The notes under the pieces are model-generated. The model searched no databases and had not been told where the DNA came from. It saw nothing but the letters and a program-made list of their open reading frames with translations. This document shows positions 2,647-6,467 of a stretch of DNA of 36,493 bases, piece by piece (position 1 is the first letter of the stretch; the number at the start of each line of letters is the position of its first letter). This DNA is from Roseateles sp. (lineage in GTDB: Bacteria; Pseudomonadota; Gammaproteobacteria; Burkholderiales; Burkholderiaceae_C), in contig JADMJQ010000031.1 of the NCBI GenBank assembly GCA_018780415.1, forward strand, positions 72,112 to 108,604, written 5' to 3'. A program made the position numbers and the translations under genes.

Positions 2647-3678
2647 TTATCCAGCGAAGTATTCGCGCATAGCGGCGATGGCTTGGTCCACCGCGGCTTC
2701 GTCCACATCCAGATGGGTGACGAAGCGCAGCTTGTAGAGGCCGGTGGCCAGCACGCCGCGCGCCTTCAAGTACTCGATCACGCCGGCGGCCCTGCTTGCG
2801 GTCACGCCGGCCACATCGACGAAGACGATATTGGTCTGCGGCGCCTCAACCGTCACGCCGGGCAGGCCTTGCAGCCCGGCGGCCAGACGCTTTGCCAGCG
2901 CATGGTCATCGGCCAAACGCGCCACCTGGTGGTCAAGCGCGTAATGCGCCGCCGCCGCCAACACGCCGGCCTGGCGCATGCCGCCGCCCAGCATCTTGCG
3001 CCAGCGCTTGGCCTGTTTGATCAGGGCGGCCGAGCCGCACAGCACCGAGCCGACCGGCGCGCCCAGGCCCTTGGAGAAGCAGACCGACACGCTGTCGAAA
3101 TACTGCGTTATCTCACGGGCAGCCGCATAAGGGTCGCCGCCAGCCGACACCGACGCGTTGAACAGCCGAGCACCGTCCAAATGGCGCGCCAGCCCATGCT
3201 TTTGCGCCAGCGCCGAGGCCTCGGCCAAGTAGGCCAAGGGCAGCACCTTGCCGCCAATGGTGTTCTCCAGCGTCAGCAAACGCGTGCGCGCGAAATGCAC
3301 ATCATCGGGCTTGATGTTCGCTGCGATGTCTGCCAAGGACAGCGAGCCATCGGCCTGGTGATTCAGCGGCTGCGGCTGGATGGAGCCCAAGACCGCTGCG
3401 CCGCCGCCCTCCCAGCGATAGGTATGGGCGAACTGGCCGACGATGTACTCGTCGCCGCGCTGGCAATGCGCCATCAAGGCACAGAGATTGCTCTGCGTGC
3501 CGGTCGGCATGAACAGCGCCGCCTCAAACCCTAAGCGCTCGGCGACTGCCTGCTGCAGCGCATTGACGCTGGGGTCATCGCCGAACACATCGTCCCCGAG
3601 CTGCGCTGCGGCCATTGCTTCGCGCATGCCGGCCGTCGGCTGGGTCACCGTGTCGCTACGGAAATCAACTGTTTTCAT
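2647..3678 (-). CDS. ltaE: Low-specificity L-threonine aldolase
   Basis: A 343-residue PLP-dependent aldolase of the LtaE family, cleaving L-threonine or L-allo-threonine to glycine and acetaldehyde. The N-terminus (VDFRSDTVTQPT) is diagnostic. His85 (AHTYRWEGGG), Asp168 (HLDGAR) and the Schiff-base lysine Lys203 (CFSKGLGAPVG) are in their expected settings. The gene is embedded in the trp operon, 3 bases after trpG and 12 bases before trpD. No step of tryptophan synthesis needs it. A link through glycine/serine supply (TrpB consumes serine) is only a guess. Confidence 0.95.
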   Translation of the reverse strand: MKTVDFRSDTVTQPTAGMREAMAAAQLGDDVFGDDPSVNALQQAVAERLGFEAALFMPTGTQSNLCALMAHCQRGDEYIVGQFAHTYRWEGGGAAVLGSIQPQPLNHQADGSLSLADIAANIKPDDVHFARTRLLTLENTIGGKVLPLAYLAEASALAQKHGLARHLDGARLFNASVSAGGDPYAAAREITQYFDSVSVCFSKGLGAPVGSVLCGSAALIKQAKRWRKMLGGGMRQAGVLAAAAHYALDHQVARLADDHALAKRLAAGLQGLPGVTVEAPQTNIVFVDVAGVTASRAAGVIEYLKARGVLATGLYKLRFVTHLDVDEAAVDQAIAAMREYFAG

Positions 3679-4326: not shown

Positions 4327-4704
4327 TCACAGCTGGTTCACAAGCCGCCTCAATCCTTTCAACAGAGTCGGCTGATTGAAATTGATCAGCAGACCAAGAC
4401 GTTTATCGCTGAGTCGCAAATAAGAAAGCAGCTGTGCTTCATGCTGCGGGGTCAAAGCATCCACCGCCTTGAGCTCCACCAGCACACAGTCCTGGACCAA
4501 AAAGTCGGCCCGGTACGAGACGCCAAGGTCCTGCCCTTTGTACAAGGCCCGAATCCCAAGCTCACGCTCGAAAGAGCAGTTCCGCAATTGAAGCTCGATC
4601 GACAGCGCATTGGCATACGCCGACTCCAGCAGCCCGGGTCCCAGGCAACGATGGACTTCGACAGCAGCGCCAATCACCATTTCGCTGACTTGATTTTCAA
4701 TCAC
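4327..4704 (-). CDS. GxxExxY protein (PD-(D/E)XK nuclease-like)
   Basis: A complete 125-residue GxxExxY family protein. The naming motif is GLLESAY (residues 24-30), after an AAVEVHRCLGPG segment. A PD-(D/E)XK-like core follows, with Asp67 in YRADFLV and Glu77-x-Lys79 in LVELKA, so the nuclease fold may be catalytic. The biological role of the family is not established. The start is GTG, fused to the inner end of the right repeat arm. A GGAGG created by one variant repeat unit lies 8 bases upstream, and the family N-terminus (MIENQVSEMV) agrees. It sits between trpE and trpG on their strand, so it is probably co-transcribed with them, yet it has no evident link to tryptophan. Confidence 0.9.
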   Translation of the reverse strand: MIENQVSEMVIGAAVEVHRCLGPGLLESAYANALSIELQLRNCSFERELGIRALYKGQDLGVSYRADFLVQDCVLVELKAVDALTPQHEAQLLSYLRLSDKRLGLLINFNQPTLLKGLRRLVNQL

Positions 4705-4755: not shown

Positions 4756-6255
4756 CTAAAACCCCTCCTCAACCAACTCCGCCGCCCGTATCAAGGCCCT
4801 CGCCTTAGCTTCCGTCTCGGCCCATTCCAGCTCGGGCACCGAGTCGGCCACCACGCCGGCCGCCGCCTGCACATAGAGGGTTTCGTCCTTGATGATGCCG
4901 GTGCGGATGGCGATGGCCAGGTCCATATCGCCGGCAAAGCTCAGGCAACCGACCGCGCCACCATAAATGCCGCGCTTGACCGGCTCCAGCTCATCGATGA
5001 TCTGCATCGCGCGGATCTTGGGCGCGCCGCTTAGCGTGCCGGCCGGGAAGCTGGCTCGGAACACGTCCAGATTGCTGATGCCGTCATTCAAGATGCCCTC
5101 GACATTGCTGACCAGATGCATCACATGCGAGTAGCGCTCGACGACAAAGGCATCGGTCACCTTGACCGAACCAGTCTTGACGATGCGGCCGATGTCGTTG
5201 CGGGCCAGGTCAATCAGCATCAGATGCTCGGCCAGCTCCTTGGGGTCGGCCTTCAGCTCACGCTCCAGGGCCAGGTCTTGCTCCAGCGTGCCGCCGCGCG
5301 GGCGGGTGCCGGCCAGCGGGCGGATGGTGACCTTGTCACCGTCGGGAGAATGCTCCTGGCGGACCAGAATCTCCGGCGAGGCGCCGACGATCTGGAAGTC
5401 GCCCATATCGTAGAAATACATATAGGGGCTGGGGTTCAAGGAGCGCAGCGCCCGGTACAGGCTCAAAGGCGATTCGGTGTAACGCTTGCGCAGGCGCTGA
5501 CCAATCTGCACCTGCATCATGTCGCCGGCGGCGATGTATTCTTTGGCCCGCAACACCGCCTTCAAATAATCTGCCTTGGCAAATTCGCGCTCGACCGGGT
5601 GCGCCTGCCCGCGTTTGACCAGCGGCGCCGAGACGCTATAGGCCAGCTTGTCGCGCAGCTCGGTCAGGCGCTTTTGCGCCTTGAAAAAAGCCTCGGGCTG
5701 GCTCGGGTCGGCGTAAACGATCAAATAGAGCTTGCCGCTGAGGTTGTCGATCACCGCCAGCTCCTCGCACTGCAAGAGCATCACGTCCGGCGTATCGATG
5801 CCGCCGGGCATTGCTGTCTTGGCGAGCTTGGGTTCGATATAGCGCACCGCGTCATAGCCGAAATAGCCGGCCAGGCCACCGCAAAAGCGCGGCATGCCGG
5901 GCCGCAGCGCGACCTTGAAGCGCTGCTGATAGGCGGCGATGAAGTCGAGTGGGTTGCCGTTGTGAGTCTCAACCACCTGGCCGTCGCAGATCACCTCGGT
6001 CAGCAGGCCGCGGCTCTGCAGCACGGTGCGGGCCGGCAGGCCGATATAGGAGTAACGCCCAAAGCGCTCGCCACCGACCACCGATTCCAGCAAGAAGCTG
6101 TTGCGCCCCCCTTTGCCGCCATAAGCCCCGGCGCCCGAGCAGAGCTTCAGGTAGAGCGAAAGCGGGGTTTCCAGATCGGCGAAGGCCTCGCTGATCAAGG
6201 GGATGCGGTTGTAGCCGAGCGCGGCCAGGCTTTTAAATTCAAGTTCGGTCATCAT
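4756..6255 (-). CDS. trpE: Anthranilate synthase component I
   Basis: TrpE, 499 residues, makes anthranilate from chorismate with TrpG. The Trp feedback-binding motif LLES is present near the N-terminus (NSFLLESVVGGERFGRYSY). Chorismate-binding segments follow: LAGTRPRGGT, LIDLARNDIGR and the C-terminal SGAPKIRAMQIIDELEP with YGGAVG. Length and order are normal for the free-standing enzyme. The start chosen is the ATG ATG pair at 6255/6252, because ELEFKSLAALGYNRIPL is the usual proteobacterial N-terminus; the ORF track start at 6288 adds 11 unlikely residues. It is first in the operon, preceded by a candidate leader peptide and hairpins. Confidence 0.96.
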   Translation of the reverse strand: MMTELEFKSLAALGYNRIPLISEAFADLETPLSLYLKLCSGAGAYGGKGGRNSFLLESVVGGERFGRYSYIGLPARTVLQSRGLLTEVICDGQVVETHNGNPLDFIAAYQQRFKVALRPGMPRFCGGLAGYFGYDAVRYIEPKLAKTAMPGGIDTPDVMLLQCEELAVIDNLSGKLYLIVYADPSQPEAFFKAQKRLTELRDKLAYSVSAPLVKRGQAHPVEREFAKADYLKAVLRAKEYIAAGDMMQVQIGQRLRKRYTESPLSLYRALRSLNPSPYMYFYDMGDFQIVGASPEILVRQEHSPDGDKVTIRPLAGTRPRGGTLEQDLALERELKADPKELAEHLMLIDLARNDIGRIVKTGSVKVTDAFVVERYSHVMHLVSNVEGILNDGISNLDVFRASFPAGTLSGAPKIRAMQIIDELEPVKRGIYGGAVGCLSFAGDMDLAIAIRTGIIKDETLYVQAAAGVVADSVPELEWAETEAKARALIRAAELVEEGF

Positions 6256-6306: not shown

Positions 6307-6367
6307 AAAAAACAGGGCGCTTGGGCTGACCGGGCTCTAAAGAGCGATCAGGGGCAGCGCGCAAGCG
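6307..6367 (-). promoter_or_regulatory. Candidate attenuator hairpins upstream of trpE
   Basis: On the minus-strand transcript, CGCTTG (plus 6362-6367) can pair with CAAGCG (plus 6318-6323). This encloses an inner hairpin: CTGATC/GGTCAG and GCTC/GAGC around a TTTA loop, plus 6326-6351. Five bases past the outer stem comes a run of six T (plus 6307-6312). The inner hairpin contains the leader peptide's stop codon. The arrangement resembles an attenuator driven by ribosome position on the leader. Alternative pairings exist and no folding energy was computed. Confidence 0.45.
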
Positions 6368-6452
6368 TCATCAAACGGGCAGCGGGCGTGCGGCGCCAGG
6401 GCCAGGCTCCCCGGTCGTGAGACCCCTTGATGAAGTTGCGCGTGATGAACAT
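6348..6452 (-). CDS. trpL: Candidate trp operon leader peptide
   Basis: A 34-codon ORF upstream of trpE, too short for the ORF track. Its N-terminus reads MFITRNFIKGSHDR, followed by two tryptophan codons in an AWPW context at positions 17 and 19. Tandem or near-tandem Trp codons directly upstream of trpE fit a leader peptide whose translation senses charged tRNA-Trp. Its stop lies inside a hairpin that precedes a T-run. No good ribosome site precedes the ATG, but a possible extended -10 (TGATACACT) ends six bases before it, which would make the transcript leaderless. The trpL assignment is by position and Trp codons, not by a homology search. Confidence 0.65.
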   Translation of the reverse strand: MFITRNFIKGSHDRGAWPWRRTPAARLMTLARCP

Positions 6453-6467
6453 GAAATCAGTGTATCA
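6453..6467 (-). promoter_or_regulatory. Candidate extended -10 promoter for the trp leader
   Basis: On the minus strand TGATACACT (plus 6459-6467) matches an extended -10 element, TGn followed by TACACT. Six bases separate it from the leader ATG, so transcription would start at about the A of the ATG. No convincing -35 is seen 16-18 bases upstream. Confidence 0.35.

Follow-up and report, generated by a model that had tools for sequence, protein, structure and literature searches.

Leader Region Upstream of trpE

The window, that is, the whole stretch of 36,493 nucleotides of Roseateles sp. DNA that was analyzed, carries on its reverse strand the trpE gene and, approximately 90 nt ahead of its start codon, a short ORF with Trp codons, which lies between an extended −10-like box and trpE (Table 1). 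TrpE and TrpG-type domains were confirmed by Pfam, and TrpE by NCBIfam as well. The longest trpE ORF starts at ATG 6288; however, homologs begin at the codon aligned with ATG 6255, and an annotation from 6288 would therefore probably be too long. The 11 extra codons (6288-6255, reverse strand) overlap a GC hairpin. Between trpE and trpG lies a GxxExxY / PDDEXK_3 gene (4327-4704, reverse strand; Pfam PF13366, E 1.7e-39; TIGR04256), and the gene directly after trpG, where trpD would be expected (2647-3678, reverse strand), is one that we take by eye to be threonine aldolase-like.

Table 1. Coordinates of the features at the trpE leader
Feature	Position	Strand	Remark
Extended −10 promoter element, TGATACACT	6467-6459	-	6 nt spacer to the leader ATG
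trp leader peptide ORF, 34 codons	6452-6348	-	MFITRNFIKGSHDRGAWPWRRTPAARLMTLARCP
Candidate outer helix P0	6442-6427 (about codons 4-9) with 6375-6358 (ORF end)	-	cross-species pairing statistic
Predicted hairpin P1	6414-6396	-	5′ strand 6414-6409 CCGGGG, loop 6408-6402 AGCCUGG, 3′ strand 6401-6396 CCCUGG
Trp-Pro-Trp sensor codons, UGG CCC UGG	6404-6396	-	across 142 distinct leaders, both UGG and the first two Pro bases are (almost) invariant
Six T	6312-6307	-	not conserved
GC-rich hairpin (6304-6276), then UUUU	6304-6272	-	possible weak terminator
trpE, anthranilate synthase component I, controlled gene	4756..6255	-	start ATG 6255 by homolog alignment

Conservation of the Leader ORF

The first-pass annotation had pointed to a 34-codon ORF with Trp-Pro-Trp before trpE, and comparison with relatives confirms that this ORF is real and that the ORF and its Trp codons are conserved across the family of the window. 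When trpE was located in 60 relatives and the DNA upstream of it was read, most members of the family among them were found to carry an equivalent ORF, and such an ORF precedes trpE in the 172 leaders collected. The peptide reads MFITR(K/N)xxIKGSHDRGAWPWRR in the genus of the window and MFIHRxxITGxSDRGAWPWRKP in other genera. A search that left the third codon positions free detected the DRGAWPWR core in 193 of 251 sampled family genomes, representing 113 of 141 genera, and the core was nearly always written CGGGGAGCCTGGCCCTGGCG despite this freedom. A pattern that is blind to trpE (TACACT, ATGTTY, and GCNTGGCCNTGG with gaps) gave at least 119 matches in 84,980 genomes, one per species. Among the matches listed, 114 of 117 complete loci lie 104-259 nt upstream of trpE, and the genera include Acidovorax, Variovorax, Rhodoferax, Ramlibacter, Hydrogenophaga, Comamonas, Roseateles, Rubrivivax, and others. 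Since this pattern fixes TACACT and ATGTTY, and hence selects for both, these two features have to be judged on the leaders L171-L199.

The leader is missing from some species in the genus of the window. In one of them (L005), the promoter and the RBS region are kept and the leader ORF is lost; in three others (L016-L018), the promoter and the leader are both gone, and trpE lies 8 nt behind an upstream ORF, which looks phosphatase-like. The leader behaves as a removable control unit.

Promoter and Predicted Leaderless Start

The usual distance between a −10 box and the transcription start site is approximately 6 nt. In the 169 leaders with a recognizable box, the box ends 6-11 nt before the leader ATG, and the spacer is exactly 6 nt in 72 of them; among the leaders L171-L199, a set assembled without selection for the box, it is 6 nt in 15 of 28. 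This spacing predicts that the transcript starts at the ATG or within approximately 5 nt of it. Judged by this promoter geometry, the leader ORF is probably leaderless. A Met-Phe start (ATG TTC at codons 1-2) is near-universal in the family, including most of the loci that were not selected for ATGTTY, and is perhaps a context for leaderless initiation.

Predicted RNA Helices of the Leader ORF

Both Trp codons lie within the hairpin P1, and the use of synonymous codons follows this structure. In 142 distinct ungapped leaders, two third positions inside the stem CCGGGG/CCCUGG are strongly constrained, namely those of the Arg codon CGG (G in 141 of the 142) and of the Pro codon (C 136, U 5, A 1), whereas no such constraint is seen at the Ala codon in the loop (C 110, U 17, A 14, G 1) or at the Arg codon after Trp-Pro-Trp, which lies outside the stem (U 76, C 35, G 17, A 14). 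The Gly codon, at the edge of the loop, uses purines only (A 121, G 21, never C or U). This is the pattern expected of the stem CCGGGG/CCCUGG with the loop AGCNUGG. Covariation is scarce because the stem is nearly invariant; the third pair changes from G-U to A-U in four leaders (L024, L087, L075, and L077), and two leaders of another family (L048 and L254) have a shifted six-pair version of the stem with a loop that is one base shorter (stem variants CCAGGG-GCCUGG-CCCUGG and CCGGGG-GCUUGG-CCCUGG). Pausing at rare codons could account in part for the frozen third positions, as a partial alternative for some of the sites. A further outer stem directly around P1 (CAGG/CCUG) was considered and rejected, as it is only partly paired and, for most pairs, no better than in shuffled sequences.

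An outer helix, P0, is suggested by comparison between species. Nucleotides 12-27 of the leader pair with the stop-codon region of their own species with a score of 14.08, as compared with 12.35 for cross-species combinations, a difference of z 9.5 that has to be read against a null inflated by relatedness (the z over 275 pairs of segments in the pairing matrix has an SD of approximately 2). The control segments (nt 0-12, nt 24 to W-18, P1, and others) are flat. Examples of the two strands in various leaders are GCAAGCAAACC/GGUUUGUUUGC, GAAACACCA/UGGUGUUUC, GCAAACUAA/UUAGUUUGC, and GUGUUCA/UGAACAC. Swapping the strands between related species also favors the own partner (19 vs. 8, p 0.026; 32 vs. 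18, p 0.033), with flat controls; at stricter similarity cut-offs, where few pairs are informative, the counts are 4 vs. 0 (p 0.06) and 6 vs. 3 (p 0.25). Thus, the support for P0 is moderate and weaker than that for P1. The same matrix, with its relatedness-inflated null, displays local hairpins near the stop codon and near −50/−30 of trpE. The ORF had been noted to end inside a hairpin, and it does stop at the 3′ strand of a local hairpin. Together, P0, with its moderate support, and P1 would provide a helix of the 1:2 type that involves the leader ORF, as in the E. coli trp attenuator.

Possible Masking of the trpE Ribosome-binding Site

One way in which such a leader might act is translational attenuation, in which the leader RNA masks the trpE RBS until a ribosome that stalls on the Trp codons sets it free. 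This mechanism is well supported in other families of the order. The upstream DNA of trpE in 150 genomes sampled from the order revealed, in many of these families, leader ORFs that end in WRWRR, WRWWR, or similar and lie only 60-90 nt before trpE. In a test set of 47 such short leaders, taken from 49 that were chosen automatically and imperfectly and probably include some false ones, the stretch preceding the Trp codons (up to 45 nt) scores 17.37 in pairing with the trpE RBS of its own species, vs. 13.80 across species (SD 0.41, z 8.8, 0 of 300 permutations), and the Trp codons themselves give z −0.4 against the RBS. Swaps between sister pairs favor the own partner (12 vs. 4, p 0.038). Opening of the RBS costs 10.6 kcal/mol in the native short leaders, 7.6 when the upstream sequence is shuffled, 7.5 with a ribosome at the Trp codons, and 9.5 with a ribosome at the stop codon. 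Examples of anti-RBS and RBS segments are ACCACAGAGACACAGA/UCUGUGUCUCUGUGGU (L040), CCCGGAUCCUGAA/UUCAGGAUCCGGG (L235), and CUCCUGUA/UACAGGAG (L246). As far as sequence comparison can tell, the short leaders of other families look as a translational attenuator should look.

Among the leaders L214-L313 are very short ones with Trp codons whose upstream codons are complementary to the trpE RBS, with up to 13 perfect pairs (L235), and a leader of the first set of relatives (L040) forms 16 such pairs.

In the family of the window, no such masking is detected. The energy of opening the RBS is the same in native and shuffled leaders (difference 0.02 ± 0.28 kcal/mol) and almost unchanged on stalling, and leader-RBS helices occur at the chance level (p below 0.05 in 4.1 percent of 172 leaders). 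In the window itself, a pairing of CUGGCCCUGGCG with the RBS segment UGCUAGGGUUGG is possible (p 0.015); however, this is one of 172 leaders tested, and close relatives contain only a shorter core of the match. Masking of the RBS as the mechanism at this locus is therefore rather unlikely. Pairing between the Trp hairpin and the trpE RBS appeared attractive in alignments of Ramlibacter and Acidovorax, and was discarded because it is at the chance level over the 172 leaders.

It is also tempting to consider the trpE leaders of the order together as terminator-free systems, in which, in many families, the leader codons upstream of the Trp codons hide the RBS until a ribosome stalled for want of Trp uncovers it, and the family of the window has rebuilt its leader as a leaderless ORF closed by a two-part hairpin of its own, with an output other than intrinsic termination. 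The arguments for and against this order-wide view seem to us evenly balanced.

Search for a Terminator and an Antiterminator

The classical alternative is an attenuator of the E. coli type, in which stalling at the Trp codons leads to a 2:3 antiterminator and a 3:4 intrinsic terminator otherwise forms before trpE. The 1:2-like helix P0 is in keeping with it. The first-pass annotation had proposed ribosome-mediated attenuation with a larger stem and the six T as the terminator, an assignment that does not hold: no strong hairpin lies directly before the six T, a terminator scan at this site gave nothing, and the run is unique to the species of the window, the three closest relatives having TTTCT or similar. 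The one element here that is shaped like a terminator is the GC-rich hairpin with its UUUU tail, which lies 16 nt ahead of the start of trpE and has a counterpart in one relative (L002); however, the hairpin is seen in relatives of which two (L003 and L004) lack the U tail. Across 172 leaders, terminator-like sites between the ORF and trpE (at least 5 U in 8, ΔG at most −9) occur at much the same rate as in dinucleotide shuffles of the leaders (0.140 vs. 0.147). With the same setting, an excess is seen at convergent gene ends in these taxa (0.123 vs. 0.042), so that the detector has some power. The strands of P1 are no more complementary to the sequence downstream than expected, and the 3′ strand of P0 has no second partner; thus, a 2:3 helix is undetected in the family of the window. 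Rfam gave no family match up to E 5. An attenuator of the E. coli type is thus unlikely. Folding of the leader transcript of the window as a single sequence, which had been suggested as a check, was no better than that of shuffled sequences (z −0.64), a result that weighs against any leader-based reading. Of the attenuation proposed in that annotation, the Trp-codon sensor stands, strongly supported by its conservation and position, and the intrinsic terminator and the 2:3 helix fall with the family-wide tests; consequently, the locus is placed here among the variants of leader-peptide attenuation rather than with the trp attenuators of the E. coli type.

Possible Function of the Leader Peptide Itself

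The conserved RGAWPWR might instead be an arrest peptide that senses Trp in the ribosome, or a trans-acting peptide like peTrpL of Sinorhizobium. Conservation extends to residues beyond Trp, including an Ala with a free third base, and the Met-Phe start recurs, both of which would suit such a peptide. On the other hand, the P1 stem accounts for most of the conserved codons, the C-terminal tail is variable, and a replacement of Arg by Gln occurs in which the pairing of P1 is kept. Synonymous sites are frozen where the hairpin needs them and free elsewhere, and much of what looks like a specific peptide is therefore a constraint on the RNA. For most residues, the earlier idea of an N-terminus with a function of its own is thus not needed, as the DRGAWPWR codons build P1 and codons 5-9 join P0. 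A peptide acting in its own right is accordingly improbable. A chance ORF in GC-rich DNA, which the shortness of the frame and the ordinary single-sequence fold might suggest, is practically eliminated by the family-wide conservation and the tight linkage to trpE.

Proposed Mechanism and Output

A short conserved ORF just upstream of a biosynthetic gene carries sensor codons for the amino acid that the pathway makes. Control of trpE by a Trp-responsive attenuator based on this leader peptide is therefore likely, with the response taken from the logic of leader peptides. Comparison between species backs the ORF, its link with trpE, the Trp codons, the position of the promoter, and P1, and backs P0 more weakly; the response to Trp and its direction are what we infer. 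In this model, transcription would start at the leader ATG or within a few bases of it, and a ribosome would load on the leaderless, or nearly leaderless, message and translate the ORF. When charged Trp-tRNA is ample, the ribosome would pass Trp-Pro-Trp and leave at the stop codon, the ORF would refold into P0 and P1, and trpE expression would be low. When Trp-tRNA is short, the ribosome would halt inside P1, both P0 and P1 would stay open, and trpE expression would rise. The statistical tests on which the elements are judged overlap and use related sequences.

Since the searches for a conserved intrinsic terminator and for RBS masking were both negative in the family of the window, Rho-dependent termination in the untranslated, C-rich and G-poor spacer is the best guess for the output, one made by judgement and held at somewhat below an even chance. 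Next to it, likewise as guesses, come a translational effect, then a weak U-poor terminator, and last an effect on RNA stability. The spacer between the stop codon and trpE has a median length of 143 nt, with C at 0.38 and G at 0.30, and C exceeds G in 90 percent of the leaders. This composition is compatible with Rho and not specific for it, as families with translational control are C-rich too; moreover, the guess does not account for how a ribosome stalled in the middle of the ORF would stop Rho.

Comparison with Known Systems

Textbooks present the trp attenuator as the model of ribosome-mediated control. A large group of bacteria appears to keep the sensor, a leader ORF with Trp codons, with no sign of the textbook effector, an intrinsic terminator, between the ORF and trpE. 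If this is true, the attenuation of one gene has been rebuilt with different outputs, as sister families seem to use masking of the RBS. It would then also provide a matched series of natural constructs, species without the leader among them, for testing which part matters. In the literature that was searched, nothing on trpE leaders in this order was found; the work of Lopatovskaya et al. (2010), cited in PMC4833913, may overlap.

The locus resembles the E. coli trp attenuator (trpL, Rfam Trp_leader) in that a short ORF with nearby Trp codons precedes trpE and a hairpin involves the ORF. By contrast, the start here is predicted to be leaderless, the sensor is Trp-Pro-Trp rather than Trp-Trp, and neither a conserved U-tailed terminator, nor a 2:3 switch, nor an Rfam match was detected. 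The trpLE(G)/rnTrpL system of Sinorhizobium meliloti, in which Trp codons likewise precede trpE, is closer in its start: rnTrpL begins at its trpL ATG (PMC7298713), which is a precedent for the leaderless start that is predicted here. However, the Trp codons of S. meliloti are consecutive and transcription attenuation yields an attenuator sRNA, whereas the family of the window has no conserved terminator signal and a dissimilar peptide.

According to the account in PMC9031893, leaderless short ORFs with polycysteine codons in mycobacteria control downstream genes via the speed of the ribosome (Canestrari et al., 2020). As described there, these are similar to the present leader as leaderless (here by prediction) short ORFs with sensor codons; they differ in that they concern cysteine in Actinobacteria, and the family of the window concerns tryptophan, with an output that may be other than translational. 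In the LEU element of actinobacterial leuA, the leader ORF pairs with the Shine-Dalgarno sequence without a terminator (PMC1262725). In that element, it is the sensor codons that pair with the Shine-Dalgarno sequence, and changes of these codons left the regulation unaltered (PMC1262725), whereas the paired segment of the short trpE leaders lies upstream of the Trp codons and the family of the window lacks such pairing. The LEU element, with its terminator-free pairing between leader and Shine-Dalgarno sequence, thus resembles the trpE leaders in the other families of the order.
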